Below are positions 12,806 to 30,264 of a DNA stretch of 64,000 nucleotides, in pieces (within the stretch, counting starts at the first letter, position 1; each line of letters opens with the position of its first letter). The DNA comes from an uncultured Oscillospiraceae bacterium (lineage in GTDB: Bacteria; Bacillota; Clostridia; Oscillospirales; Oscillospiraceae). The stretch covers positions 1 to 64,000 of the forward strand of contig CATONV010000004.1 of NCBI GenBank assembly GCA_951801655.1, read 5' to 3'. A model generated the notes under the pieces. That model was not told the origin of the DNA. It did not search any database and was given only the letters and a program-made list of their open reading frames with translations. A program made the translations under genes and the position numbers.

Positions 12806-14311
12806 ATGGCAAAAGAGACTTCAACCGCTCAGATTGGGTTTGAGAAGCAAATCTGGGACGCCGCCTGTGTGCTGCGAGGAAACATGGACGCTTCCGAATA
12901 CAAGACAGTAGTTCTGGGCCTAATTTTTTTAAAGTACATCTCAGACCGCTTTGAGGAGAAGCACCAGGCCCTGTTGGAAGAGGGCGAGGGCTTTGAGGAG
13001 GACGTAGACGAGTACACCTCCGAGGGCATCTTCTTTGTCCCTGCCAACGCCCGATGGAATATCATTGCCAAGGCGGCCCATACCCAGTCCATCGGAATTG
13101 CCATTGACGATGCCATGCGGAGTCTTGAAAAGGAAAACCCGCGTCTGAAGGACATCCTCCCCAAGAACTTCGCCCGGCCTGAACTGGACAAGCGGCGGCT
13201 GGGGGATGTGGTGGACCTGTTCACCAACATTCAGATGATCGAGAACGGCAGCGAGAAGGACATTCTGGGCCGAACCTATGAATACTGCCTGTCCAAGTTT
13301 GCCGAGCAGGAGGGCAAGCTGGCCGGGGAGTTCTACACGCCGTCCTGCGTGGTGCGCACGCTGGTGGCGGTTCTCCAGCCCTACCATGGCCGTGTCTACG
13401 ACCCCTGCTGCGGCAGCGGCGGCATGTTTGTCCAGTCGGCCCGGTTTGTGGAGAGTCACACCGGGAACATCAACGACATCTCCGTCTACGGCCAGGACTC
13501 CAACCCCACCACCTGGAAAATGGCCCAGATGAACCTGGCGATCCGGGGCATCGACGCCGACTTGGGCCGCTTCAATGCCGACACCTTCTTCAACGACTGC
13601 CACCCCACCCTGCGGGCCGACTTCGTCATGGCCAATCCCCCCTTTAACCTCTCCGACTGGGGGGCAGACAAGCTGGGGGACGACCCCCGCTGGCAGTACG
13701 GCCTGCCTCCGGCGGGCAACGCCAACTTCGCCTGGCTCCAGCACATGATTTACCATCTGGCCCCCGGCGGGCGGATCGGCATGGTGCTGGCCAACGGCTC
13801 CCTGTCCTCCCAGTCCGGAGGTGAGGGGAAGATTCGGGAAAACATCATCCGGGCCGACCTGGTGGACTGCATCGTCGCCATGCCCACCCAGCTGTTCTAT
13901 ACCACTCAGATCCCGGTCTCCCTGTGGTTCCTCTCCAAGGACAAAAAGCAGAAGGGCAAGACGCTGTTTATTGACGCCCGGAAAATGGGAACTATGGTCT
14001 CCCGCAAGCTGCGGGAGCTGGCCGGGGCGGACATCCAAAAAATCGCGGACACCTACAACGCCTTTGCCGACGGGTCGCTGGAGGATGTGAAGGGCTTCTG
14101 CGCCGTGGTGAATACGGAGGAGATCGCCCGGCAGGACTACATCCTCACCCCGGGACGGTATGTGGGCATCGAGGAGCAGGAGGACGACGGCGAGCCCTTT
14201 GAGGAGAAAATGGGGCGGCTGACGGCGGAGCTGTCGGGGCTGTTTGCCAGGTCCCACGAGCTGGAGAAGGAAATTCGGGAGCGGCTGGGGGAGATTGGGT
14301 ATGAGATATGA
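12806..14311 (+). CDS. hsdM: Type I restriction-modification system, methyltransferase (M) subunit
   Basis: GEFYTPSCVVRTLVAVLQPYHGRVYDPCCGSGGMFVQS...DFVMANPPFNLSDWG (NPPF catalytic motif). Confidence 0.97.
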   Translation: MAKETSTAQIGFEKQIWDAACVLRGNMDASEYKTVVLGLIFLKYISDRFEEKHQALLEEGEGFEEDVDEYTSEGIFFVPANARWNIIAKAAHTQSIGIAIDDAMRSLEKENPRLKDILPKNFARPELDKRRLGDVVDLFTNIQMIENGSEKDILGRTYEYCLSKFAEQEGKLAGEFYTPSCVVRTLVAVLQPYHGRVYDPCCGSGGMFVQSARFVESHTGNINDISVYGQDSNPTTWKMAQMNLAIRGIDADLGRFNADTFFNDCHPTLRADFVMANPPFNLSDWGADKLGDDPRWQYGLPPAGNANFAWLQHMIYHLAPGGRIGMVLANGSLSSQSGGEGKIRENIIRADLVDCIVAMPTQLFYTTQIPVSLWFLSKDKKQKGKTLFIDARKMGTMVSRKLRELAGADIQKIADTYNAFADGSLEDVKGFCAVVNTEEIARQDYILTPGRYVGIEEQEDDGEPFEEKMGRLTAELSGLFARSHELEKEIRERLGEIGYEI

Positions 14312-15485
14312 AGTCATTCCCTTCGGAAATTTACTGAAAGAGCCTATTCGTAATGGGCTTACAAAGCCAAAAGCAATTAGAGGACAAGGTGCAAAAATGA
14401 TTGCCATGGGAGAAATTTTTGCGAATTCACGAATTGGCTCTATCAATATGGATAGGGTTCCCGTAACTGATAAAGAGCTTAATAATTGTGGCATAGAAGT
14501 AGGTGATTTGCTTTTTGCAAGGCAATCATTAGTATTGGAAGGCGCAGGGAAGTGTAGTATTATAACAGTAGTGGATGAGCCAACTGTGTTTGAGTCACAT
14601 TTGATAAGGGTAAGAATAGATACATCAAAAGCAAATCCATACTTCTTATATTATTATTTTAATTCCCATCATGGAAAGGAAAATATTAAAACTATTGTGG
14701 AGCAGGTTGCGGCGGCAGGAATTAGAGGCAGCGACTTGATAAGACTAAATGTACCTTGCCCTACTTTGGAGGAGCAAAATCATATAGCAGAAATTCTTAA
14801 TAGATTTGATGATAAAATCGAACTGAACCAGCGGATCAACAAGAATTTGGAGCGGCAGGCGGAGGCAATTTTTGCAGAGCATTTCTTGAATAATTCAGAT
14901 ATTCCCGATGGATGGAGAACAGGAAATCTCCTTGAAATCGCAGACTATTTGAATGGATTAGCAATGCAAAAGTATCGCCCAAAAGATGGAGAAGTTGGTT
15001 TGCCTGTTCTGAAAATCAAGGAGCTCAGACAAGGGGTGTGCGATGATAGCAGTGAGTTGTGCTCACCGAGTATCAAATCAGAATATATCATCCATGACGG
15101 CGATGTTATTTTTTCATGGTCGGGAAGTCTGCTTGTTGATCTCTGGTGCGGCGGGATTTGCGGCTTGAATCAGCATCTTTTCAAAGTTATATCGAAAAAT
15201 TTCGACAAGTGGTTTTATTATAGCTGGACTTTGCACCACCTTAAACGCTTTATCGCTATTGCCGCCGATAAAGCGACAACAATGGGCCATATCAAGCGGG
15301 AAGAATTGGCAAAGGCTGAGGTACTGATTCCGTCGAAATCCGATTATGACAGAATTGGGACAGTTATGGGGCCAATATATGACCTTATAATTGCAAATAG
15401 GCTAGAGAATCGAAAATTGGCAGAAGTTAGGGATAGGTTGTTGCCGAAACTTATGGCTGGGGAGATTGATTTGCCGGGGGATTGA
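14301..15485 (+). CDS. hsdS: Type I restriction-modification system, specificity (S) subunit
   Basis: Two target-recognition halves separated by conserved IELNQRINKNLERQAEAIF and ending ENRKLAEVRDRLLPKLMAGEI; ATG at 14301 overlaps the hsdM end by 11 nt. Confidence 0.94.
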   Translation: MRYEVIPFGNLLKEPIRNGLTKPKAIRGQGAKMIAMGEIFANSRIGSINMDRVPVTDKELNNCGIEVGDLLFARQSLVLEGAGKCSIITVVDEPTVFESHLIRVRIDTSKANPYFLYYYFNSHHGKENIKTIVEQVAAAGIRGSDLIRLNVPCPTLEEQNHIAEILNRFDDKIELNQRINKNLERQAEAIFAEHFLNNSDIPDGWRTGNLLEIADYLNGLAMQKYRPKDGEVGLPVLKIKELRQGVCDDSSELCSPSIKSEYIIHDGDVIFSWSGSLLVDLWCGGICGLNQHLFKVISKNFDKWFYYSWTLHHLKRFIAIAADKATTMGHIKREELAKAEVLIPSKSDYDRIGTVMGPIYDLIIANRLENRKLAEVRDRLLPKLMAGEIDLPGD

Positions 15486-16206
15486 TAATTTGGAAACAGA
15501 AGAAATTATTGTGGCAATTCAAGAAGCCGCAAAGACAATAGCGACACCAAATTGGGCCGATATTTTATCAGTAATAGTCGCATTAGGTGCAGTTGTCGTT
15601 GCAGTTATTATTGCGTTTAAACAAAATAAAATAGCAAAACAGCAAAATGAGCTTGTAAAACAACAGAATGTATTTGCTGAACAGCAAAACCAGATCGTGA
15701 AACAACAGAATGAACTGGCAAAGCAACAAAATAAAATTGCAGAGAAACAGGCAGAAATTGCAAACCAGCAGAATAAAATTGCGTTATTCGGCAAAAGAGT
15801 ACAAGTTTATACTGAGATAGTAAAAATATATAACGTTGTCGAAATTTTAAATTTGACAAATATAAGTTCCTATCCTGCGAGAATGATTTTTAAATTTATA
15901 CAGGAGCAAATGGAATACGAAATTTCAACAGATTTACTTACTAATTTATCTATGTATCATCGTACAATAACAATTCTCAAGCAAGCACCATTCTTTTTCC
16001 CACAAATACCAATACATGATGTTAACAATTTTGGGTTTAATTTTAGTAGTTTGTTTTTTAATCTTAATACAGAATTAATTAATAACCCGGATATCACGAT
16101 GGAACAATTTGAAAATGAAGCAAGACAAAATTTTATTGCATCTGCTGAATCATTTTGTACAAAATATTTGCTATATATTGTAGAATGTTTAAAATTACAG
16201 AGGTAA
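15466..16206 (+). CDS. Uncharacterised membrane-anchored coiled-coil protein between hsdS and hsdR (start may be TTG at 15490)
   Basis: TM segment WADILSVIVALGAVVVAVIIAF followed by eight 7-residue repeats (KQQNELV/KQQNVFA/EQQNQIV/KQQNELA/KQQNKIA...) and a globular C-terminus; AT-rich. Confidence 0.8.
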   Translation: MICRGIDNLETEEIIVAIQEAAKTIATPNWADILSVIVALGAVVVAVIIAFKQNKIAKQQNELVKQQNVFAEQQNQIVKQQNELAKQQNKIAEKQAEIANQQNKIALFGKRVQVYTEIVKIYNVVEILNLTNISSYPARMIFKFIQEQMEYEISTDLLTNLSMYHRTITILKQAPFFFPQIPIHDVNNFGFNFSSLFFNLNTELINNPDITMEQFENEARQNFIASAESFCTKYLLYIVECLKLQR

Positions 16207-16213
16207 TTCAATC

Positions 16214-19200
16214 ATGTCCTACACTGAATCAAATTACGAATCCGCCGTCATCGAGCTTTTCGTCCAAATGGGCTACACCCACGTCTATGCCCCCGACCTG
16301 AACCGGGCGGACTGCACCAGTCCTGTGCTGGATGCGGTGCTTCTGGACAGCCTGGTGCGCCTGAACAGGGACCTGCCCCCGGAGGCTATCCAGGAGGCCA
16401 TGGCGAAACTGAAAGATTTTGACAGCGGCAGTCTGGTGCAGAAGAACCGGATTTTCACAGGGTATCTCCAAAACGGCATAGAGGTGAAGTATTTCGCCCA
16501 GGGGGAGGAGCTCTCCGCTCTGGTGCGCCTGGTGGACTACCAGCGCCCGGACAACAACGCCTTCTATGTGGTGAACCAGTATACATACGTGGAAAACGGC
16601 AACACCCGCCGCCCGGACGTGATTTTGTTCCTCAACGGTCTGCCCCTTGTGGTGATGGAGCTGAAAAGCCCCTCCCAGGAGGACGCGGGGGTGGAGAACG
16701 CCTATCACCAGCTTCGCAACTACATGCAGGACATCCCCTCCCTGTTCATTTACAACGCCATCTGCGTCATCAGCGACCTGTCCGCCAGCCGGGCGGGCAC
16801 CATTACCTCCGGCCTGGACCGATTCATGGAGTGGAAGACGAAGGACGGACGCTATGAGAACACCGCCTACGCCCAGTTTGACACCTTCTACGAGGGCATG
16901 TTCCGGCGGGAGAGGCTACTGGACATTTTGAAGAATTTCATCCTGTTTTCCGGCGACACCCAGAAGCCTGTCAAAATTCTGGCTGGGTATCACCAGTACT
17001 TCGCCGTCCGAAAGGCGGTGGACAAGGCGGTGACCGCCACCGCCACCGACGGCAAAGGCGGCGTCTTCTGGCACACCCAGGGCAGCGGCAAGTCGTTGTC
17101 CATGGTCTTCTACACCCATCTTTTGCAGGAGCCGCTGGACAGTCCCACCATCGTGGTCATGACCGACCGCATCGACCTGGATGACCAGCTCTATACTCAG
17201 TTTGCCAGGTGTGCTGAGTTCCTCCGTCAGACACCGGTTCAGGCGGAGAGCAAGGAGCATCTAAAATCTCTGCTGGAGGGCCGGGCGGCCAACGGGATCA
17301 TCTTCACCACCATGTTCAAGTTTGAGAGGGGGGAGACCGCCCTGTCCACCCGGCGGAACATCGTGGTCATGGCGGACGAGGCCCACCGGGGGCAGTACGG
17401 CTTTGACGAAAAAGTGGTCTACAGCGAGAACGGCCAGGGGGAGCAGGAGGCCCATGTGGTGGTAGGCAACGCCCGGATCATCCGGGATGCACTGCCCAAC
17501 GCCACCTTTATCGGCTTCACCGGCACACCGGTGTCCGCCAAAGACCGGAACACCCGGGAGGTGTTCGGGGACTATATCGACATCTACGACATGACCCAGG
17601 CGGTGGAGGACGGCGCCACCCGGCCGGTGTACTACGAAAGCCGAGTCATCCACTTGAAGCTGGACCAGAACACCTTAAATCTCATCGACGCTACTTACGA
17701 TGTTCTGGAGAAGCAGTCCAACGCCGAAACCGTCGAGAAGAGCAAAAAGATGCTGGGGCAGATGGAGAGCGTCCTGGGGGCGGGCTCTACCATCCAGTCC
17801 CTGTGTGAGGACGTTATTGGTCATTATGAGAACTACCGGGCCAGCCTGCTCACGGGAAAGGCCATGATCGTGGCCTACTCCCGGCCCATCGCCATGAAAA
17901 TTTACCGGAAGCTGCTGGAGCTGCGGCCCGGCTGGACGGAGAAAATCGGGGTTGTCATGACCAGCGGCAACAACGACCCGGAGGAATGGAACGAAATCAT
18001 TGGCACGAAGAGACATAAGGAGGAGCTGGCCCGAAAATTCAAGGACAACAGTGACCCCATGAAGATCGCCATTGTGGTGGATATGTGGCTGACGGGATTT
18101 GACGTGCCCTCCCTGGCCACCATGTACGTCTATAAGCCCATGCACGGCTACAATCTGATGCAGGCCATCGCCCGGGTCAACCGGGTGTTTCAGGACAAGG
18201 AAGGCGGCCTGATTGTCGATTATGTAGGCATCGCCTCTGCCCTGAAGGCCGCCATGAACGAGTACACCGAGAGGGACCGGGGCAACTACGGCGATATGAA
18301 TATCGCCCAGACCGCCTACCCCAAATTTCAGGAGAAGCTCCAGGTCTGTAAAGACCTGATGCACGGCTTTGACTTCAGCGGATTTACCATAGGCAGTCCT
18401 CTGGAGATGGCAAGGGCAATTTCCGGCGGTGTCAACTTTGTTTTGGACGCGGCCGCGCCTGACCGCAAAGAGCTGTTCGCAAAGGAGTCTCTGCTGCTCA
18501 AGCAGGCCCACTCCCTCTGCTCCAGCCTGACCACCGCACAGGAGAGGCACGACGCCGCCTACTATGAGGCGGTTCGTTCCGCTGTGGTCAAACTGACAGT
18601 GGGTGGAACCGGAGGCAAAGTGCTGTCCTTGCAGGAGATTAACGCGCAGATCAACAACCTGCTGAAAGCCAGCATTCAGAGTGAGGGCGTCATCAATCTG
18701 TTTGACAGCAAGCGTGTGGGAGAGAAGTTCAATCTATTTGACCCGGACGTGCTGGAAGAGATTGGGAAGATGAAGGAGAAAAACATCGCTGTGGAGATCC
18801 TCCGCAAGCTGATGGCGGAACAAGTGTCCGTCTTCCAGCGGACAAATGTGGTACAGTCACGGAAGTTCTCCGAGAAGATCGCCCGGCTGATGAATTCGTA
18901 TTATAATGGCCTGATTACCAACGAGGAGGTCATCAAGGAGCTGCTGGACACCGCGGCCCAGATTGCGGCGCTGCATCAGCAGGGTGAGGCGCTGGGTCTG
19001 TCTCCGGAGGAGATGGCATTCTATGACGCGCTGACCAAGCCGGAGGCCATCCGAGATTTTTACAAAAATCACCAGTTGGTGGCCATGACCCGGGAATTGA
19101 CAGAGATGCTCCGCAAAAACCGAACCATCGACTGGCAGAGAAAAGAAACTGCCCGAGCCGGAATGAGGAAGATGGTCAAGCGGCTGCTGAGAAAATATGA

Positions 19201-19282
19201 CTATCCGCCCGAGGGCGTGGAGGACGCCATTAACACGGTGATCAGTCAATGCGAGACGTGGACAGACCATGGGATATTATGA
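16214..19282 (+). CDS. hsdR: Type I restriction-modification system, restriction (R) subunit
   Basis: [22 protein letters not shown] (PD-ExK nuclease), [23 protein letters not shown] (Walker A), [14 protein letters not shown] (DEAH), [23 protein letters not shown]. Confidence 0.97.
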   Translation: [1022 protein letters not shown]

Positions 19283-19461: not shown

Positions 19462-19516
19462 TATTCTGACAGCAGCGCCGCAAAATGGGCGGGGACTGTT
19501 CAAAGGAGAGTTGTCT

Positions 19517-22282
19517 ATGCAGGCCAATCTCAACTGGCTGACCAACCCCCAAATTTTCCAGGTAAACCGCCTGGACGCCCACTCCGACCATGTGTGCTAT
19601 GCCTCCCCGGAGGAGGCGGCCCGGGGGGAGACCTCTCTGCGGCAGTCCCTGGACGGGATGTGGCGCTTCGGCTGGAGTCAACGCCCGGCCGACCGCCCGG
19701 CGGACTTCTGGCAGGAGGGCTTTGACGACAGCCGCTTTGGGACCATCCGGGTCCCGGGGCACATGGAGACTCAGGGATATGGGCAGATCCAGTATATCAA
19801 CACCCTCTACCCCTGGGACGGCCACGCCGAGGTCCGCCCTCCGGAGATCGACTGGGAGGACTGCCCCGTGGGCAGCTATGTGCGTACCTTTGACCTGGAC
19901 GCCAGCCTGCTGGGGAAAGTGGTCTGCATCAGCTTCCAGGGGGCGGAGCAGGCCATCTATGTCTGGCTCAACGGCCATTTTGTGGGCTACGCCGAGGACA
20001 GCTTCACCCCCTCCGACTTCGATCTGACCCCCTACGTCCGGGAGAAGGGCAACCGGCTGTGCGTAGAGGTTTACAAACACTCCAGCGCCGCCTGGATCGA
20101 GGATCAGGACTTCTTCCGGTTTTCCGGCATCTTTCGTTCCGTTTTCCTCTACGCCAAGCCGGCGGCCCACCTGGCCGACCTGTGGCTCCAGGCCGTGCTG
20201 GAGGAGGACAACACCACCGGCGTCCTGTCCGTCCGTCTGCTGCTGGAGGGGGAGGGAACGGTCCGCATGAGGCTGACTCACCCCGGCCAGGGGACGCTGT
20301 TTGACGGACTTCTGGACCTGGCGGCGGAGGGAAACTACCTGCGCAGTCAGCCCTTCCGCTTTGAGAATGTTCTCCCCTGGGCCCACGACCACCCGGAGCT
20401 GTACCGGGCAACCTTGACTGTTTCCGCCCTGAACGGGACCGTCACGGAGGTGGTCCCCTACGAGATCGGCTTCCGCCGGTTCGAGTTGAAGGACGGCGTT
20501 ATGCTCCTCAATGGAGAGCGGCTGATTCTCAACGGCGTCAACCGCCACGAGTGGAACCCGGAAACCGGCCGGGCCATCGGTCCGGCGGACATGACCGCCG
20601 CCATGGAGACCTTCCGGCGCAACAACATCAACGCCGTGCGCACCTGCCACTACCCCAACCAAACCCGCTGGTATCACCTGTGTGACCAGAACGGCATCTA
20701 TATGATGGACGAGGCCAACCTGGAGAGTCACGGCTCCTGGCAGAAGCTGGGGCGGGTGGAGCCCTCCTGGAATGTGCCGGGCAGTCTGCCCGAATGGCGG
20801 GACTGCGTGGTGGACCGGGCAAAGTCCATGTTTGAACGGGACAAGAACCATGCGTCCATCCTCTTTTGGTCCTGCGGCAACGAGTCCTACGCCGGGGAGG
20901 ACATTCTGGCCATGGCGGACTTCTTTCGGAAAGCTGACCCCAGCCGGCTGGTCCACTACGAGGGGGTGTTCCACTGCCGGGCGTTTGACCGCATCTCCGA
21001 CGTGGAAAGCCGCATGTACGCCCCGCCGGAGGAGGTCCGGGCCTATCTGGAGAACAGCCCCAAGAAGCCCTTTATCCTGTGCGAATACATGCACGACATG
21101 GGCAACTCTTTGGGCGGCATGGAGAGCTACATCCGCCTTGGAGAGGAGTTCCCCCAGTATCAGGGCGGCTTTATCTGGGACTACATGGACCAGGCCCTGT
21201 GGCGCACCGACTGCAATGGCCGCCGGGTGCTGGGCTACGGCGGGGACTTCGGCGAGAGGCAAACCGACTACGCCTTCAGCGGTAACGGCATCGTTTTTGC
21301 CGATGGGACAGAAAAACCGGCCATGCAGGAGGTGCGGTACTGGTACTCCACTCCCGAAGAGAGGGCGGCTCATGACGCTGCCAACGAGCGGGCGAAAAGA
21401 GAGTCGCCCCTTCCCACGCCGAGAGCGAAAAAATTCCCTCTCCGCGTCACCCACGGGGACGGGGCCCTGGGGGTGCGGGGAGAGGGCTTTGAAATTCTGT
21501 TCTCCTATCCGGAGGGCGGACCGGCGTCGTTGGTCTCCGAGGGGCGGGAATGGCTGTGGCGGGCGCCCCGCCCGGCCTACTGGCGGGCCCCCACGGAAAA
21601 TGACCTGGGCAACGGCTTTGCGCTGAAAAGCTCCGTCTGGGCGGCGGCGGACAGCTGGCAGAAGTGTGAAAACATCGAAATTCTGGAGGAGAGTCCGGAG
21701 CGGGTCTCCATCCGCTTCACTTACACGGCTCCTGCCATGCCGGGGCTGAAAACCGACGTGACCTACACCGTGGAGGACTCCGGCTGTGTGACAGCTGCCG
21801 TCCATTACCACGGCGGGGCCGGTCGGCCCGGACTGCCCTTGCTGGGCCTGCGCTTCGCCACCCCTGAGCCGGTGGAGGAGGTGGAGTGGCTGGGCCTGTC
21901 CGGCGAGACCTACCCCGACCGGAAGAAGGGCGGCGTCTTCGGCTGGCACCGGGAGGTCCCCCACGTCTCCGCCTACCTGGTCCCCCAGGAGTGCGGCTGT
22001 CACGTGGACACCCGGGCGGCAGTGCTGCGGAACGGGCTCTCCCGGCTGACCTTGGAAATGGCGGATCGGCCCTTCGCCTTCTCGGCCATCCCCTACACCC
22101 CCCAGCAGCTGGAGCAGGCCGCCCATGTGGAGGAACTTCCCTTCCCCGTCCGCACCGTGGTAACCATCTGCGGGGCCATGCGGGGCGTGGGGGGCATCGA
22201 CAGCTGGATCAGCGATGTAGAGGAGGCCTATCATGTCAGCGGAGAGGCGGATCAGAAGTTCTCTTTCCGCCTGTGGCTGTGA
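19517..22282 (+). CDS. lacZ: Beta-galactosidase, glycoside hydrolase family 2
   Basis: FGTIRVPGHMETQGYGQIQYINTLYPWDGH..., GVNRHEWNPETGRAIGPADMTAAMETFRRNNINAVRTCHYPN, SCGNESYAGEDI, FILCEYMHDMGNSLGGMESY. Confidence 0.95.
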   Translation: MQANLNWLTNPQIFQVNRLDAHSDHVCYASPEEAARGETSLRQSLDGMWRFGWSQRPADRPADFWQEGFDDSRFGTIRVPGHMETQGYGQIQYINTLYPWDGHAEVRPPEIDWEDCPVGSYVRTFDLDASLLGKVVCISFQGAEQAIYVWLNGHFVGYAEDSFTPSDFDLTPYVREKGNRLCVEVYKHSSAAWIEDQDFFRFSGIFRSVFLYAKPAAHLADLWLQAVLEEDNTTGVLSVRLLLEGEGTVRMRLTHPGQGTLFDGLLDLAAEGNYLRSQPFRFENVLPWAHDHPELYRATLTVSALNGTVTEVVPYEIGFRRFELKDGVMLLNGERLILNGVNRHEWNPETGRAIGPADMTAAMETFRRNNINAVRTCHYPNQTRWYHLCDQNGIYMMDEANLESHGSWQKLGRVEPSWNVPGSLPEWRDCVVDRAKSMFERDKNHASILFWSCGNESYAGEDILAMADFFRKADPSRLVHYEGVFHCRAFDRISDVESRMYAPPEEVRAYLENSPKKPFILCEYMHDMGNSLGGMESYIRLGEEFPQYQGGFIWDYMDQALWRTDCNGRRVLGYGGDFGERQTDYAFSGNGIVFADGTEKPAMQEVRYWYSTPEERAAHDAANERAKRESPLPTPRAKKFPLRVTHGDGALGVRGEGFEILFSYPEGGPASLVSEGREWLWRAPRPAYWRAPTENDLGNGFALKSSVWAAADSWQKCENIEILEESPERVSIRFTYTAPAMPGLKTDVTYTVEDSGCVTAAVHYHGGAGRPGLPLLGLRFATPEPVEEVEWLGLSGETYPDRKKGGVFGWHREVPHVSAYLVPQECGCHVDTRAAVLRNGLSRLTLEMADRPFAFSAIPYTPQQLEQAAHVEELPFPVRTVVTICGAMRGVGGIDSWISDVEEAYHVSGEADQKFSFRLWL

Positions 22283-22448: not shown

Positions 22449-22519
22449 GTGATCCATTAAGGGCATTGACCATTGGTCTGGGACAGAGGCTGTGCTGAAT
22501 CTGTATTGGAGGGAATGAA

Positions 22520-24193
22520 ATGGTAAACAAAACTGGATATCTGCAAAAACTTGATGGAATATTGAACATTATGAGAAAATGCCAGCTGGAGGATGCTGTT
22601 TCAAATGAAATTGAGAAATTAAGGGACGCCATCGACGAATATGCGTTTCGGATTCTGATGATCGGCGGATTCAGCGCGGGGAAAAGCGCATTTTTGAACA
22701 CGCTGCTGAGCCGGGAGACGCTGTTAAAAGAGGATCAGGCGCCTGAGACTACCATCGCAACTGAGCTGGTATATGATGAAGCGGAGTTTATCGAGGCCGT
22801 CAACGCAAAGGGCGAAAAGACGCGCTTTTTGAGCAAGGAGGGAGATTCCCTATCCCCAAAGGACTGGAGATATTTGATTTATCATGTAAACAGTCCCTTT
22901 TTAAAAACTCATCCCAATGTGATCCTGGTGGATATGCCGGGACTGGATTCCAATATTTCCAACCACAACATGGCAATCGCGCAATATATTTCCAAAGGCA
23001 GCGCATACATCCTTCTGGTCAGCTGTGAGGACGGTACCTTGAAGGAATCCACGCGTGATTTTCTTTGGGAGGTCACACAGTATCCCCAGAGTATTACGTG
23101 CTTTGTTTCCAAGTCGGACCTTAAAGTGGATAGGGAGACCGCCGAAGTGGCAGAAACCATTCGAAGTGAGATTGCGGTGGCCTACGGGAGGAGTGTGCCG
23201 GTTTGTAATATTTCGGTTTTCGACGAAGATTTTATAAAAAAGGCGCAGGACGTAATCGAGGCATTTGACGCACAGACCTTATTTGAGGAAAAGTATCGGA
23301 CTGCAATCAATGCGGTCATTTCAACCGGGCAGGCTGCGCTGAGTACCGCTGCCGACGCAATGTTCCTTGACCTGCAGACGATCAACCAGAACATTTCCGC
23401 TTGTACGAAAAATCGGGACAACCTGAAACGGAAACTGGTGCAGGAAAAAGCGGAGCTGGAACGCAAATATAACCGGCAAGTGATCCCGGCCGTTTTAGAG
23501 GACGTTGAAAACGCGCTGCTGGGGCAGACCGGCCGCTTGACGCAGGCCCTCACTATCAGCGGGGAGGCATTTAACGCCTGTGTAAACTCGATCCTTCGTC
23601 CGATCCTTGTAAACTCTGCCCAGCAGCACATTGTCAGCAGCTTTGACGAATATATTGAGCATCTGGATTTGAACAATCTGATGGGAGAGGACAACGAAGC
23701 GGTTCGGCAGTCTATTGCGGACGGGCTTGAGCTTGTCCGTTCTTACGCCCATACGGTTCAGGAAAACGCCCGGAAGGCGGGGCTGCGCCAGGGGCGAGGC
23801 AGGTCTTACGAGCTGATCACAGGCGCCATTGCCATTGCCACAGATTTTGTTTCGCCGATTATCGAGCTTGCAATCGTGTTTTTACCGCTTATTTTTGAGG
23901 TTGCGGCCGGGATAAACCAAAAGTCTCAGTATGAAGATCTGGAGCAAAAGGTACGAAATGTTGTGATTCCGGAAATCGTTTCAAAACTTCAGCCGCAAAT
24001 TACCGCGGCAATCCAGGAGATGAGAGACGCCATGCTGGAAGAACTGCAAGCCAATCTGGATGAGACGATAAACGCCCAGGAAATGGCGCTGCAACAGGCG
24101 CTGGAGAAGAGACAGCAGGCTACAGATGATTTCAACGCAATGCAGGATGAGTGCAGACAGGCCATAAAACGGCTGGAAAGTTTGCGAGAATAA
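22520..24193 (+). CDS. Dynamin-like GTPase A (dynamin-family P-loop protein, 557 aa)
   Basis: G1 GGFSAGKS, threonines near VYDEAE region for G2, G3 DMPGLD, G4 SKSD; C-terminal helical region with hydrophobic segment (LITGAIAIATDFVSPIIELAIVFLPLIFEVAAGI). Confidence 0.85.
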   Translation: MVNKTGYLQKLDGILNIMRKCQLEDAVSNEIEKLRDAIDEYAFRILMIGGFSAGKSAFLNTLLSRETLLKEDQAPETTIATELVYDEAEFIEAVNAKGEKTRFLSKEGDSLSPKDWRYLIYHVNSPFLKTHPNVILVDMPGLDSNISNHNMAIAQYISKGSAYILLVSCEDGTLKESTRDFLWEVTQYPQSITCFVSKSDLKVDRETAEVAETIRSEIAVAYGRSVPVCNISVFDEDFIKKAQDVIEAFDAQTLFEEKYRTAINAVISTGQAALSTAADAMFLDLQTINQNISACTKNRDNLKRKLVQEKAELERKYNRQVIPAVLEDVENALLGQTGRLTQALTISGEAFNACVNSILRPILVNSAQQHIVSSFDEYIEHLDLNNLMGEDNEAVRQSIADGLELVRSYAHTVQENARKAGLRQGRGRSYELITGAIAIATDFVSPIIELAIVFLPLIFEVAAGINQKSQYEDLEQKVRNVVIPEIVSKLQPQITAAIQEMRDAMLEELQANLDETINAQEMALQQALEKRQQATDDFNAMQDECRQAIKRLESLRE

Positions 24194-24221
24194 CGGAAAG
24201 AAATCATTGAGGAGGGCAAGG

Positions 24222-26477
24222 ATGAACACGCAGCGACAAAGGGAGAGAAACAGGCGGTTTGCAGCGGAGATACAAAAAATAAAAGCAGCAATTCAAACGC
24301 AGCAGGGACTAATCGGAGGCGATCCCATTGAGTCCTTTACAGATAGAGTTGAGAGAATTACAAAGTATATGGAAGGAGAGAAGGAGAGAGGGGACAGTCT
24401 CACCATTGGGATCATTGGAACAGTAAAAGCCGGAAAATCCTCTTTGCTGAACGCCCTGGTGTTCAACGGGGAAGAGATTTTACCGAAGGCGCCCGTTCCC
24501 ATGACAGCCGCTCTCACAAAGATAAGCTATGCCGCGGTGCCGCAGGCTACGGTTGTCTTTTATGAACCGTACGACTGGGAAAAGATTGAGGGCCAGGCGA
24601 GAAGATTCAACGAGGCTGTTGAGGAGGAAATGGCGCAGGCCCGTCAGATGGCTCAAATGGATCCGCAGATAACATATTCCGGGGATTTCCTCAGCCGTTC
24701 ATGGGCGGTAAATCGAGTGAAAGCGCATAAAAAAGTGTCAGAGGCGGTGGAAGCCAGCTATGAACTGGTCTCCATGATGGAAAATTGCGACTATAATTTC
24801 CGTGAATTGCTGGGGACAAAGCGGATTATTCCCGGAGATCCCGGCGATGCTCCGGAGGAATATGTAGAGAAACTGGGCGACTATGTAGGGGCCGACGGAA
24901 AGTATACTCCGCTGGTAAACCATATAGAATTACAGATCAACAATCCCCTGGTGCAGGGCTTCGTCATCGTCGACACGCCCGGCCTGAACGATCCGATTGT
25001 TTCCCGCAGCCTGCAAACGAAAAAATATCTGATGGATTGTGACGTGGTGTTTGTGGTCAGTTCGGTGGGGCAGTTTCTGACCAGCCAGGATATGCAGCTG
25101 ATTGAGAAGGATCTGGAGTCTGAAAGTATCTCTCACGCATATATTATCGGATCTCAGCTGGACAGCGGGATCCTGCAATATAACCGGGCGGAAAAGCGGT
25201 TTCAGACGGCTTTCGACCGCAGCATGGAGAACTATGAAAGGCAGGCGGACAAGGCTCTCAGCAGTATGGAGGGAGGGGGGCTGTTTGACAGGCTGAAAAA
25301 GTCTCTCCCGCCCTTGCTTACTTCTGCCATGATGTTCGGGATTGCCCGAAAAATGGAGAGAGGCCAGCCCTTTGACGAGTATGAGGAGCATACGCTGAAA
25401 CAATACAGAGTACGATTTAAAGATTTCGACGAGGTGCTGGAAACGGCAGAAGATTTCTATGTTTTTTCCGGAATCGGAGAGGTGAAGGAGCGCGCCTATG
25501 ATGAGGTGCGGAGAGACAAGGCGGCGATTATCGAAGAAGGTTTGAAAAAATATACCAGCGACCAGTCCGGCGAATTGATCCGGCTTTTGGAGGAGATCAA
25601 TATTACGGCAAAGTCAAACCTGAACGCACTGCGTACCGGCGATGTGGAGAAGCTTGAAAAGAAGCAGGAGGACTTGAAGGAAAAGCTGGATTCCATACGG
25701 CTTGAGGTAAAAAACATCTTTGAAAATCAGGCGGCGTCCTGTAACAGACAGATCCAGAATATCAAGATTGAGATATCAAAAGAGGTCGGCGAGCACACCG
25801 ACCTTGAGATCAAAACGGAACGCGAAAGGAAGACAGATCCAGAAAAATATGGTTTTCTTGGACTGTTCAGAAGGAACCGGGAATTCTATGAGGATAAAAA
25901 GAAAGCCGAGCTGGCACAGACGCTTAAAAATATCCGAGGATATACAACGCGCGCCCAGGAGCTTATCAACAAGAACCTGAAAGAAATTTTTGACGAGGAG
26001 GGTCTTCGGGATAAGCTGAAGCGGTGCGTCATCGGCGCGTTTGATCTGACATCCAAGGAATTCCGGGAAGATGAGATACTGCTTCCCGTTAACACGCTGC
26101 TGGCGCAGCTTACCGTAAAAAAAGTAGACTTTAAAATCATGCACGAGGTACAAGACAGACTATATGGCTCCTTTGCGGATTCAAATGGCGTGGTAGAGGG
26201 CAATGACATCCACAAGCTGCACAAGGTTCAGGAAGAGATCTTGAATGAGATACTGATGCGCTTATCCAAAGCTTTGGACGAGAGCTGCAGTTGGATCGAA
26301 ACACGCATGATTCAGGCGTCCGGAAGCTTTGTGGACGACGTCCAGAAAAAAATCTCAGACAACATTGAGAGAACCAGAATGCAGCTTTCCGACAAGAAGA
26401 AAAACCTGATGCTGTATGAGAATTTTATCGAAGACATTGCCCGGTACAAGGAGACAGTCAGGCAATTGGGGGAGTAA
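24222..26477 (+). CDS. Dynamin-like GTPase B (about 751 aa)
   Basis: G1 GTVKAGKSSLLNAL, VPMTAALTKI, G3 VIVDTPGLNDPI; long helical C-terminus. ORF-track start 24207 uses an upstream MRRAR; ATG at 24222 seems better. Confidence 0.85.
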   Translation: MNTQRQRERNRRFAAEIQKIKAAIQTQQGLIGGDPIESFTDRVERITKYMEGEKERGDSLTIGIIGTVKAGKSSLLNALVFNGEEILPKAPVPMTAALTKISYAAVPQATVVFYEPYDWEKIEGQARRFNEAVEEEMAQARQMAQMDPQITYSGDFLSRSWAVNRVKAHKKVSEAVEASYELVSMMENCDYNFRELLGTKRIIPGDPGDAPEEYVEKLGDYVGADGKYTPLVNHIELQINNPLVQGFVIVDTPGLNDPIVSRSLQTKKYLMDCDVVFVVSSVGQFLTSQDMQLIEKDLESESISHAYIIGSQLDSGILQYNRAEKRFQTAFDRSMENYERQADKALSSMEGGGLFDRLKKSLPPLLTSAMMFGIARKMERGQPFDEYEEHTLKQYRVRFKDFDEVLETAEDFYVFSGIGEVKERAYDEVRRDKAAIIEEGLKKYTSDQSGELIRLLEEINITAKSNLNALRTGDVEKLEKKQEDLKEKLDSIRLEVKNIFENQAASCNRQIQNIKIEISKEVGEHTDLEIKTERERKTDPEKYGFLGLFRRNREFYEDKKKAELAQTLKNIRGYTTRAQELINKNLKEIFDEEGLRDKLKRCVIGAFDLTSKEFREDEILLPVNTLLAQLTVKKVDFKIMHEVQDRLYGSFADSNGVVEGNDIHKLHKVQEEILNEILMRLSKALDESCSWIETRMIQASGSFVDDVQKKISDNIERTRMQLSDKKKNLMLYENFIEDIARYKETVRQLGE

Positions 26478-26482
26478 GTGAT

Positions 26483-27745
26483 ATGGCGCTGAAACGCAAC
26501 CACGCCGCGGCTGACGCGGGCCCGATCAAGACGGGCAACCCATATCTGGACAAGCCGGAGAAGGGGCTGGCTCTGGTATCCAGTATTATATCAAAGAAGC
26601 CGGGAGAGGCATATTATCAGAAGCAGCGATACCGTCGGGTGGATCATCTGCTGGATCGGAAGCTGCTGTCCTATACACACAGGCTTGAGCTGAACGACGC
26701 ACTGAAGCTGTATTCCGAGCTGGTAATACTCAGCGACCAGCTGCGGTTCCCGTGGAAATATCGGATTTTGCAGGACCGTGCGGTCATTGGCCTGGGCGGG
26801 AAATTCAGTGCGGGAAAGTCCCAGTTTATCAACTCGATTTTAGGCGCCGGTTTTAAGAATCAATTGCCGGTCGACCAGGCCCCGTCCACATCCGTTCCTA
26901 CTTACATCGTCAGCGGGGACAGCAACCAAGTGTTGGCCTATACGAAAAAAGGCGCACAGGTCAAGCTGGACAATTGGGCCCTGGCCGCGATCTCCCATGA
27001 ATTTCAGACTACGTATGGCTTGGGACTTGCGCAGTACATGGATTTCATCGCAGTTTTTGCCGAAGACTTTCAGGACAATATTGCCTTGCTGGACACGCCC
27101 GGCTATAACAAACCCGACGCTTCTCTGGTTGAGGACTACTCCGATTTGCAGCAGGCGTATTCTCAGCTTCAGGCGATTGATTATCTAATTTGGCTGGTTT
27201 CTGTCGAAAACGGCACGCTTACAGACAATGACATCCGGTTTATGGAAAAACTGAATCTTCGCACAAAGATTTTAATTGTTGTGAATAAGTGCGACCTGAA
27301 GACGGAGAGCGAGTCAAGGAGGGTAGCGGAACAGGTAGAGAAGGCCGCGAGGAACGCGGGGCTGCCGATTTTTGATGTGATCCGCTATTCCTCCTTTGAA
27401 CCGGATGAATACCAGGGCGCGGAATATGTAGGGCGGTTTTTTCGCTATGCGCAGAAACGGGAAAGCAAGGCGGAGGATATCCAGCGGCAGTTCCTCAATA
27501 TTTCCAAGAAATTTGAAGGAGCGTTTCAGGCTACCCAAGGGCAGCGAGTGGAGGAGAGGGACGCACTTGGAAAGCTGATTTTTCGGGCAAATAATATCTT
27601 TGAGATATCCGCACTGGTAACCATGTACGGAGATATCAATTCCGATATCGATATTATTCGTAAAAATGAGAAGAAATTCCAGAAAGCAAAAAAAGAAATC
27701 TCAGACAGCATCCGTGACATGTTGCGGGAGGAGAGGTATCGTTGA
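26483..27745 (+). CDS. Dynamin-like GTPase C (420 aa)
   Basis: G1 GGKFSAGKSQFINSIL, DQAPSTSVPTYIVSG (G2 region), G3 LLDTPGYNKPD, G4 VNKCDLK. Confidence 0.87.
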   Translation: MALKRNHAAADAGPIKTGNPYLDKPEKGLALVSSIISKKPGEAYYQKQRYRRVDHLLDRKLLSYTHRLELNDALKLYSELVILSDQLRFPWKYRILQDRAVIGLGGKFSAGKSQFINSILGAGFKNQLPVDQAPSTSVPTYIVSGDSNQVLAYTKKGAQVKLDNWALAAISHEFQTTYGLGLAQYMDFIAVFAEDFQDNIALLDTPGYNKPDASLVEDYSDLQQAYSQLQAIDYLIWLVSVENGTLTDNDIRFMEKLNLRTKILIVVNKCDLKTESESRRVAEQVEKAARNAGLPIFDVIRYSSFEPDEYQGAEYVGRFFRYAQKRESKAEDIQRQFLNISKKFEGAFQATQGQRVEERDALGKLIFRANNIFEISALVTMYGDINSDIDIIRKNEKKFQKAKKEISDSIRDMLREERYR

Positions 27746-30264
27746 ATGAAAAATTGACTTTTGATGCTCTGGCAAAGGTTTCTTCCGTAGACCGCCAGGC
27801 GGATTCACCGGCGGGCAGGGCGTACGAAAAGCTGTTTGCGGCAATCAACAGCGACAGTAAGCCATTGATCCGCCAGATAGAGGAGAGCGGTTACCCCAGG
27901 AAGAGTGAACTGAAAGACGCATTGGATCAAATTTTAAGTATGGCCGATCTGTTTTTACGGTATCCCTTTTTGACCGGGCGTACGTCAGTTGGGATCGTCA
28001 GCGGAAAATCGCCTGTCGGCCTTCGTGTGTTGGATCAACTCCAAAACAGCGGACGGCGGGCCGCCTACGGAAAACAGTGGGATGTCCCATGCGTTGTATA
28101 TGACAGTATCGTACCTGGGCAGATTATGGCGACAAACCGGGCGGGACAAGTGATGAGGCTGACGCAGGAACAGTTTGGCGAGATTTGCAGCATCTACCGC
28201 CATGACCTCAATGTGCGGGATATGGTCGCCAGTTATGCAATCTCAGCTTCCCTGGGATATCCCAGAATCAATTATGTTCTGTTCCCGCGCTATGCAGACA
28301 AGTCAACCCAGGAATTTGCCAGACTTGCCGAGCTTTGCGACCTGTTTTGCATTATTTATGAAAAAAACAGCGGCACGGAGGGCCTCGCTGACACGATAAA
28401 AAATTCTGCCGCGCCCATATACATCGTTTCCGGCGACAACGCTGAGGCAGAAAACAAATTTCGGATCGATCTTGTGCGTCAGTGTCCGGGCCGGAATATC
28501 CATGTGATTTCCGAGGCGCAGCTGTCCCAGGTTTTAGAGGAGTATGACCATTTCCGGCATAACACTTTTTTGGGCGACCGGTTCCGCGCGGCGCTGCTCC
28601 CCATGCAGGTGTGGCGCTGTTCAGCAATCTGCAAGCATATTACAAATATCAACGCCTTGGCCAAAGACAGCTTGTTTTCCGAAGATATCGGAAGCGAAAT
28701 TGCAAAATTCCGTAAGAATGAGATCGGTTTCAGGGAACGTGAAGAGGAACTGAAGTGTGAATTTGAGCAAAAAATGCAGGAAATTGTTGGCCTTGCGGCG
28801 GAATTTGAAAAATCGTTGCGCGAGATGACGTCCCCAACAGTGGATGAAGACGGCGTGGAAAAACAATTTTCGTTCTATTACGGCGAAACCTGTGGACAAA
28901 TCATCCTGCAGTCTCTGCAATGTGAAGACAACCAGACGGCAGAGTATTATCTTTCCAAACTTAAAAAGGCAAATTGCGATCTGCTGCCGCTGTATCGTCT
29001 CTACTATCATGAGGCGGTGGGAAAGAGTCTTCTGAGAAAAGACCTGGAGTGGCTGCAGTGGCAGGAAGGAACCGATGTTTCGTCACAGGAGATCATTCGG
29101 GGCCTTTTTCATTTCGCCGGAGAGATAAGAATATCAGAAAACGAGAGGTGTAAACTTGCCTACCGTCTCAAGGAACGGTCAGCGGAGGAGGCGTATTATC
29201 ATGCGCAATACGTCGAGAGTAAGGCTGGCGCAGATCGGGCCAGGGCTGATTATGAAAAAGCGTTTGAACTGGGGAGCACCTCAGCCGCAGCGTGGCTGAC
29301 AGAATATTACGAAAACACGCACGACTCCTACCAGGTAAAAAAGCTTGCGGACAGTCTGATCCCCCAGGCCGCTTTCCTCTATGGGAAACAGTGTCTTTCT
29401 CCGTGCGCAGGAGAAAAAGTGCGGTACGCTCAGGGGATCACATACCTCCGGGTGGCGGTTTCCCTAAAATATGTACCGGCAATTTTATATTACGCGGACA
29501 TGTTGTACCTGGAAGTACATGAACAGCGTAACCCTGCAAATATTGACGTCGTGATCAAACTCTACTTGTTTATCTATCAGAACAAGCTGTATGCCGGTGA
29601 TGTGGTCCCGAGAATTGGAATTCTCTACCATATAAAGGAGGACTTCGGAAATGCCAGAAAGTATCTGGAAATGGAGCCGCATTCGGGAGAAGTCTGCTGC
29701 CGTTTGGGATGTATCTACCGTCAAGGCAGCGGCGTTGCAAGAGATTTTGGCAAGGCCCGGCGTTACCTGGAGGAGGCAAAGCGTATGGGCTATTCAGAAG
29801 CGGACGAGCAGCTGCGGCTGCTGAAGCGGCAGGAGTCATATCAAAAAAGTAAAGAAAGATCGGATCATGAAACATACCATCAGGCCGCAGATTATAAAAG
29901 TCAAATTACTTCCGGGTCCACTTCAAGCAGTTGCTTTATCACAACGGCTACCTGTCAGTTCCAGGGAAAGCCAGACGATTGCGAGGAGTTGACCGCATTC
30001 CGCCGCTATCGGGATGAAACGCTGATAAAAACAGAGACCGGGCAGGCCCTGGTCAAGGAATATTATCGAATCGCGCCTAAAATTGTGGAACGGATTGACG
30101 AGGACGATGATTGCGGCAAGATATATCAGTACCTGTATGATAATTTTATCAGGCCCGGGTATCAGCTTCTTTTGGACGGAAGGGGAGAGGAGGCTGCATG
30201 CCTGTATGAGAAAGGCGTCCGGCTTCTGGCCCAAAAATACGCGATAGCGTTTCATGCACTTTGA
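27742..30264 (+). CDS. Sel1/TPR-repeat protein with degenerate GTPase-like N-terminus and C-terminal CFI-box domain (840 aa)
   Basis: TTG start overlaps the preceding stop (TTGA) with GGAGG upstream; N-terminal GIVSGKSPVGLRVLDQL resembles a broken P-loop; Sel1-like repeats (CCRLGCIYRQGSGVARDFGKARRYLEEAKRMGYSEADEQL); CFITTATC...ELTAFRRYRDETLIKTETGQALVKEYYRIAPKIVERI. Confidence 0.8.
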   Translation: MNEKLTFDALAKVSSVDRQADSPAGRAYEKLFAAINSDSKPLIRQIEESGYPRKSELKDALDQILSMADLFLRYPFLTGRTSVGIVSGKSPVGLRVLDQLQNSGRRAAYGKQWDVPCVVYDSIVPGQIMATNRAGQVMRLTQEQFGEICSIYRHDLNVRDMVASYAISASLGYPRINYVLFPRYADKSTQEFARLAELCDLFCIIYEKNSGTEGLADTIKNSAAPIYIVSGDNAEAENKFRIDLVRQCPGRNIHVISEAQLSQVLEEYDHFRHNTFLGDRFRAALLPMQVWRCSAICKHITNINALAKDSLFSEDIGSEIAKFRKNEIGFREREEELKCEFEQKMQEIVGLAAEFEKSLREMTSPTVDEDGVEKQFSFYYGETCGQIILQSLQCEDNQTAEYYLSKLKKANCDLLPLYRLYYHEAVGKSLLRKDLEWLQWQEGTDVSSQEIIRGLFHFAGEIRISENERCKLAYRLKERSAEEAYYHAQYVESKAGADRARADYEKAFELGSTSAAAWLTEYYENTHDSYQVKKLADSLIPQAAFLYGKQCLSPCAGEKVRYAQGITYLRVAVSLKYVPAILYYADMLYLEVHEQRNPANIDVVIKLYLFIYQNKLYAGDVVPRIGILYHIKEDFGNARKYLEMEPHSGEVCCRLGCIYRQGSGVARDFGKARRYLEEAKRMGYSEADEQLRLLKRQESYQKSKERSDHETYHQAADYKSQITSGSTSSSCFITTATCQFQGKPDDCEELTAFRRYRDETLIKTETGQALVKEYYRIAPKIVERIDEDDDCGKIYQYLYDNFIRPGYQLLLDGRGEEAACLYEKGVRLLAQKYAIAFHAL

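Follow-up and report, generated by a model that had tools for sequence, protein, structure and literature searches.

Dynamins of bacteria have mostly been described in pairs. The Campylobacter jejuni proteins Cj-DLP1 and Cj-DLP2 (cj0411-cj0412, PDB 5owv/5oxf) assemble into a 2:2 heterotetramer that tethers and tubulates liposomes and in which DLP2 is the adaptor between the DLP1 arms; the same operon carries a gene for an HcpA-like protein (HcpA has Sel1-like repeats), and a role in membrane repair was put forward by the authors as a speculation (PMC6104087). DynA of Bacillus subtilis takes part in membrane surveillance against antibiotics and delays lysis after phage infection (PMC8844932). 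The present analysis concerns an operon of four genes, here named G1 to G4, located at positions 22520-30264 (+ strand) of a 64,000-nucleotide stretch of DNA (hereafter the window) from an uncultured Oscillospiraceae bacterium (contig CATONV010000004.1). Three of its products are distinct dynamin-like GTPases and the fourth is best read as a pseudo-GTPase fused to Sel1-type repeats. The four-gene set is a real and apparently uncatalogued variant, and the operon probably represents a membrane-acting stress or anti-phage system, as judged from sequence.

Open reading frame (ORF) calls on the window place the four genes close together, with G1 at 22520-24193 (557 amino acids, aa), G2 at 24222-26477 (751 aa from its ATG), G3 at 26483-27745 (420 aa) and G4 at 27742-30264 (840 aa), the latter beginning with a TTG that overlaps the TGA stop codon of G3. 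The junctions, which measure 28 nucleotides (nt) for G1/G2 and 5 nt for G2/G3 and consist of a 4-nt TTGA overlap for G3/G4, are those given in the original prediction. The GTPase motifs it had read in the first three products are likewise corroborated, since each of these proteins matches Pfam Dynamin_N (E-values of 4.4e-17, 1.6e-22 and 1.3e-10 for G1, G2 and G3, respectively). The motifs are GGFSAGKS and DMPGLD in G1, GTVKAGKS and DTPGLN in G2, and GGKFSAGKS and DTPGYN in G3, and the P-loop is kept across the family in 63 of 65 G1, 66 of 66 G2 and 86 of 86 G3 proteins. All three combine a P-loop and a DxPG motif within a dynamin-type GTPase domain and as such belong to the dynamin superfamily.

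Comparison with solved dynamins, by profile and by Foldseek, further indicates how the three GTPases differ. In the PDB profile search, the best solved relative of G2 is Cj-DLP1 (5owv_A, 2.5e-27), while G1 matches Cj-DLP2 (5owv_C, 8.1e-19) and BDLP (1.7e-16) and aligns with 5owv_A across almost its entire length. G3 matches Cj-DLP2 across positions 26-402 (1.3e-15) and has only a short C-terminal part beyond the GTPase domain. In the predicted structure of G2 (pLDDT 86), the GTPase domain is accompanied by long helical bundles, and residues 530-563 form a beta-hairpin tip, the loop of which carries GFLGLFRR, with aromatic, glycine and basic residues found there in most members. Foldseek matched this model to BDLP (5.1e-13), and BDLP, SynDLP, IniA and Cj-DLP1 were all retrieved with a probability of 1.00. 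A dynamin-type neck/trunk stalk of helices ending in a membrane tip is thus predicted, chiefly by the G2 model and, for G1, by profile. G1 also possesses a hydrophobic, paddle-like segment at residues 443-465 (FVSPIIELAIVFLPLIFEVAAGI) that is conserved in most members; this segment and the hairpin tip of G2 are the likely membrane contacts.

The fourth gene had been viewed as encoding a separate scaffold or adaptor, and this has to be corrected: its product is a fourth dynamin-family protein, related to G3, which has lost its GTP motifs and become fused to Sel1 repeats. From N- to C-terminus, it is composed of a degenerate GTPase region (ca. 1-330), a region of helical, Sel1-type repeats (ca. 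331-700), a disordered linker (711-729) and a CFI box (731-802). The two modules recognised in the original prediction were both recovered, Sel1 by a weak Pfam match (1.5e-5, under the cut-off for a single repeat) and the CFI box by the NCBIfam model CFI_box_CTERM (NF041770) with 64.2 bits for a cut-off of 40. Using a profile built from residues 1-330 of 13 G4 proteins, hhalign aligned residues 5-327 to the G3 family with a probability of 99.5 (E-value 2.6e-23) over 316 columns, which is nearly the whole of G3, and the match was retained against the G3s of other operon types alone (7.3e-22). Controls were negative, with 20 column shuffles, the reversed profile and the C-terminal part of G4 all giving a probability of at most 0.4. 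The AlphaFold model of G4 (pLDDT 82.6) retrieved Sel1 proteins from the PDB by Foldseek, together with Cj-DLP2, IniA, BDLP and mitofusins. The DxPG motif is absent from 13 of 13 G4 proteins and no Walker A motif occurs in the family alignment. Because of the profile match, the model and the missing P-loop and DxPG, the N-terminal region of G4 is best regarded as a pseudo-GTPase akin to the G3 lineage, and the shared fold points to common ancestry with dynamin-like GTPases.

The C-terminal end of G4 is more variable. In three Ruminococcus-type G4s (locus L046, 11181-16990, and loci L043 and L040), the CFI box is missing and the tails are Ser/Tyr- or Ser/Thr-rich instead, with a Ser/Tyr-rich end reading SSYYSSGW. 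In L046, G4 is followed by ORFs for a 313-aa protein without assigned function, a radical SAM enzyme and a U32-type peptidase, neighbours that hint at a modified C-terminal peptide. Three kinase-like ORFs found elsewhere (L146, L147 and L148) end in a zinc-ribbon-like region followed by a CFI box; this box is a C-terminal module common to unrelated proteins, kinase-like or Sel1, and is by itself no indicator of function. A Sel1/CFI-box protein again lies beside dynamins in a type B-like locus of a Spirochaetaceae (L106; operon types are described below). In another Bacillota genome (L144, 1-3597), the gene for a long Sel1-repeat protein with a terminal CFI box precedes a dynamin-like ORF by 19-20 bp, making this a second, differently built pair of Sel1/CFI and dynamin genes. 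The association of Sel1 proteins with dynamin operons probably arose more than once, which would argue for a functional link between them.

The four genes do recur together, as the original prediction required of a genuine system. With profiles for G1 to G4 seeded from the window and E. coli proteins, and a search of 85,488 genomes by means of the G3 alignment that yielded 80 loci, the order G1-G2-G3-G4 was found in Bacillota, Spirochaetota and Enterobacteriaceae, F-type plasmids of E. coli among them. The same genes, in the same order and of the same sizes, are present in plasmids of E. coli and E. albertii and in Citrobacter, Veillonella, Epulopiscium, Selenomonadaceae, Brachyspira and Ligilactobacillus. 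The proteins of the E. coli/E. albertii plasmids, retrieved in a plasmid protein search, measure 563, 724, 405 and 829 aa (557, 751, 420 and 840 aa in the window) and are annotated as dynamin, dynamin, dynamin and CFI-box protein. Intergenic gaps across loci are mostly below 25 nt or replaced by overlaps. Where a locus found via G3 offered at least 6.5 kb on both sides, G1 and G2 lay beside G3 in all cases but one (43 of 44). The cluster is thus not due to chance, and the three dynamins are conserved together well beyond the host genome.

Several features indicate, at the sequence level, that the operon is mobile. Matches to the E. coli version occurred in 5 of 5,426 complete genomes, always on plasmids; in one of these G2 is fragmented and in another the operon is interrupted by an IS3 element. 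The E. coli plasmid and Citrobacter copies share 99% nucleotide identity, with dN/dS below 1 for all genes, a weak test given the few changes present at this identity. Among 60 relatives of the host, a full-length G3 was found in its own genome only, and the same was true of full-length G4 among 399 genomes of the phylum. A search of viral contigs and phage records for a phage or prophage origin returned no match.

Four arrangements of the three-dynamin operon can be told apart by gene order and the G3 tree, the latter being a quick one in which several long branches are uncertain. Type A (G1-G2-G3-G4) corresponds to a single G3 clade (SH-aLRT 98) that includes the window and spans Bacillota, Spirochaetota (with Brachyspira), Lentisphaerota and Pseudomonadota (with Enterobacteriaceae), most of its carriers in the scan being Bacillota. 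G4 is present in all intact members of this clade; the sole member without it is a Melainabacteria locus (L045) on a contig that ends inside G3, and the Lentisphaerota metagenome-assembled genome has G2-G3-G4 alone on a short contig. Type B, frequent among Pseudomonas and Burkholderia, consists of G1-G2 and a longer G3. Type C (G1-G3-X-X-G2) occurs in Lachnospiraceae and Gammaproteobacteria and, in 14 Bacillota loci, G2 is followed by a HerA/FtsK-like ATPase, with a WHH nuclease-like ORF in 7 of the 14. In type C loci, hhalign detected no G4-like domain in the products of the intermediate genes. The suggestion that one type C protein is TerB-like, a guess from sequence with no Pfam support, was discarded. 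One such locus (L084, 1476-13609) and ca. 13 similar ones in Bacillota have the order G1-G3-(beta-helix)-X-G2-HerA/FtsK ATPase and in some cases continue into a WHH/colicin-DNase-like ORF and a small ORF; they look like a separate system made of dynamins, a translocase and a nuclease. Type D carries a second G3. G1 to G3 are widespread beyond the four-gene clade, where they occur with other partners such as WYL regulators or a HerA-like ATPase and nuclease.

On balance, we lean towards reading the operon as a horizontally moving, heteromeric dynamin-like machine for membrane tethering or remodelling, related to Cj-DLP1/2 and LeoA/LeoBC. By analogy to the Cj-DLP1/2 tetramer, in which DLP2 is the adaptor, G1 and G2 would be the membrane-contacting arms, the former through its hydrophobic segment and the latter through the hairpin tip on its long stalk, while G3, shortened and with little stalk, would be the connecting GTPase. 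G4, as a nucleotide-blind copy of the G3 fold carried on a Sel1-repeat arm, would most likely cap or nucleate the GTPase chain and link it to a partner protein or a signal, a part played by pseudo-enzymes in other oligomers; its repeat arm would bind protein, G4 acting as a sensor or an assembly platform. The complex would be cytosolic at rest and assemble through contacts between GTPases and, once envelope damage or infection is sensed, could tether, seal or disrupt the membrane.

Several results weigh against this reading. Full-length TM-scores of the G2 model to solved dynamins are only ca. 0.30-0.35, so that for G2 the fold class but not the conformation is established; such values can be expected for hinged proteins, yet they are no proof of equal architecture. 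Only 2 of 102 proteins encoded near type A operons match WYL models and most neighbours are metabolic genes. Near the sister types, 15 of 124 proteins match WYL models, compared with no more than 1 among 124 control proteins (none among the families listed), but this control was drawn from Clostridia only whereas the sister types are mainly proteobacterial, leaving the two unmatched by phylum. Finally, dynamins called by DefenseFinder in the Pseudomonas element I55 were inactive against the phages tested (PMC12595487).

As to its role, our favoured guess is defence or protection against envelope stress, with defence slightly ahead. A dedicated anti-phage system, in which membrane damage by a phage or a phage component would be sensed via G4 and the membrane either sealed with delayed lysis, as for DynA, or permeabilised so as to abort infection, as for Eleos, is a serious candidate that falls just short of being probable. 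It agrees with the sporadic and mobile distribution described above, including carriage on F-type plasmids, broken or interrupted copies and near-identity between E. coli and Citrobacter, with the partial likeness of G1 and G2 to LeoA/LeoBC models, and with type C operons that run on into a HerA-like ATPase and sometimes a nuclease ORF. Neighbouring genes add to this: besides the WYL-matching proteins, single restriction-modification (RM), Gabija, DarTG and BREX genes occur near sister types, BREX genes lie directly downstream of the type A operon of a Selenomonadaceae (L039), and a type B operon on a P. aeruginosa plasmid (L030) adjoins the Zorya genes ZorC and ZorD. Type A loci themselves are however little enriched for defence genes and the I55 dynamins were inactive. 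The proximity to defence genes that had been anticipated gives a stronger signal for the sister types, while for type A, with one BREX-adjacent locus and an RM locus 3.2 kb away in the window, the evidence for defence is weak. In L091, L111, L030 and other Pseudomonas three-dynamin operons, a WYL regulator gene closely precedes the operon, at a distance of 59 nt in both L091 and L030. Dynamin operons have also been flagged as "dynamins" by defence finders (PMC12595487, PMC12629846); these tools probably flag part of some of the operons described here, and the triple may therefore be partly visible in catalogues. More tentatively, all types could be viewed jointly as a previously undescribed immune system, in which a three-GTPase dynamin core found in many phyla would be combined with exchangeable modules (a Sel1 sensor built on a dead GTPase, a nuclease together with a HerA-like ATPase, an additional G3 or a coiled-coil extension) and the pseudo-GTPase would be the switch licensing assembly on a damaged or phage-occupied membrane.

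A phage-independent function, in which the dynamins would reseal or vesiculate the membrane after antibiotic or cell-wall damage, seems less likely. The Sel1-type gene of the Campylobacter DLP1/2 operon, the repair role proposed by its authors, the activity of DynA against antibiotics and the occurrence of the CFI box at the end of kinase-like ORFs all speak for it, but patchy distribution and plasmid carriage would fit conflict systems better than repair genes. An aid to vesicle release or secretion comparable to LeoABC is improbable: deletion of LeoAB approximately halved vesicle-associated markers in one strain (PMC4159319) and an ORF resembling colicin-DNase/WHH is present in some type C operons, but the four-gene type has no cargo gene and its carriers in the scan are mostly Bacillota. 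Last, that G4 is an unrelated helical scaffold whose similarity to G3 is artefactual, or that it still binds nucleotide, is very hard to credit, for although the N-terminal parts of the window and E. coli G4s show no significant match by pairwise BLAST and a GIVSGKS found in the window protein alone can be read as a near P-loop, the profile match with its clean controls and the concurring structure prediction and Foldseek results designate dynamin relatives, and GIVSGKS is one residue short of Walker A and missing in the nearest relative (L034).

The surroundings of the operon in the window were also inspected. A ggaggg ahead of the ATG marks the likely ribosome-binding region of G1 (22505-22519, + strand), and no consensus sigma-70 promoter was present among the candidates listed directly upstream of this gene. 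For G2, GAGGAGG occurs close 5' of the ATG, and an alternative TTG at 24207 would give a product of 756 aa. The operon had been described as less GC-rich than its flanks. Its genes (GC 0.49-0.51, GC3 0.56-0.62) are indeed below the upstream lacZ (0.64/0.84) and HsdR (0.57/0.79), but downstream genes are equally low (0.49/0.59 for an NtrC-type regulator and 0.51/0.61 for a peptidase at 39.2 kb) and low GC was therefore rejected as a signal of insertion. No empty site could be demonstrated via the downstream flavoprotein gene, because its closest relatives are only 44% identical. The type I RM operon (12806-19282, + strand) that had been placed ca. 3 kb away is present 3.2 kb upstream and is not contiguous with the dynamin operon, since a beta-galactosidase gene (19511-22282) intervenes. 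It encodes HsdM, HsdS, a 246-aa coiled-coil-like ORF and HsdR. The 246-aa ORF (15466-16206, + strand) has a GC of 0.31, as opposed to 0.57-0.60 for HsdM/HsdR, contains many QQN/KQQNE-like repeats after a hydrophobic stretch, and probably represents either a recent insertion or an accessory gene of the RM system.

If the reading favoured here is true, the conserved triple with its obligatory pseudo-GTPase would offer a natural and tractable model for the control of dynamin assembly by a dead GTPase. The presence of the operon on F-type plasmids would permit direct tests of phage defence, membrane repair and vesicle release in laboratory E. coli. No description of the three-dynamin set, of its dead GTPase or of the CFI box was found in the literature covered, which excluded preprints and most subscription papers.

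Among known systems, Eleos, with LeoA and LeoBC (LeoABC of enterotoxigenic E. coli, ETEC; PDB 4aur), resembles the operon in being a multi-dynamin operon. PADLOC models for LeoA and LeoBC match G1 (4e-12) and G2 (2.3e-13), respectively, by partial alignments of 44-48 bits, while nothing in the PADLOC 2.0 library matches G3 or G4. G1 scores 21.1 bits with the NCBIfam LeoA/HP0731 model (NF041922), under its cut-off of 325, and the two-component composition of Eleos does not apply, G1 and G2 being found with G3 in 43 of 44 loci and G4 in all intact members of one clade. The window operon has G3 and G4 in addition and a G2 that is one gene, unlike the split LeoBC of ETEC. By curated model or by composition, the operon is not a standard Eleos system, and existing LeoA/LeoBC models do not cover the set. 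The conserved triple suggests that what defence catalogues list as LeoA/LeoBC is a fraction of a larger three-dynamin family whose partners are exchangeable. DynA similarly has two dynamin units acting jointly at the membrane, but in a single fused chromosomal protein without Sel1 or pseudo-GTPase partner. Nostoc BDLP1, IniA, SynDLP and mitofusins, top Foldseek matches of the G2 model, share the GTPase with neck/trunk helices and are single proteins or belong to other gene contexts. Likeness to the CFI-box-CTERM proteins (NF041770) is confined to a module that G4 shares with unrelated proteins. The best solved relatives remain those of C. jejuni, DLP1 for G2 and DLP2 for G1 and G3, which likewise unite heterotypic dynamins and a Sel1-type protein gene (the HcpA-like cj0413) in one operon, but with two dynamins instead of three and with cj0413 as a separate HcpA-like protein for which neither a fused pseudo-GTPase nor a CFI box is reported.

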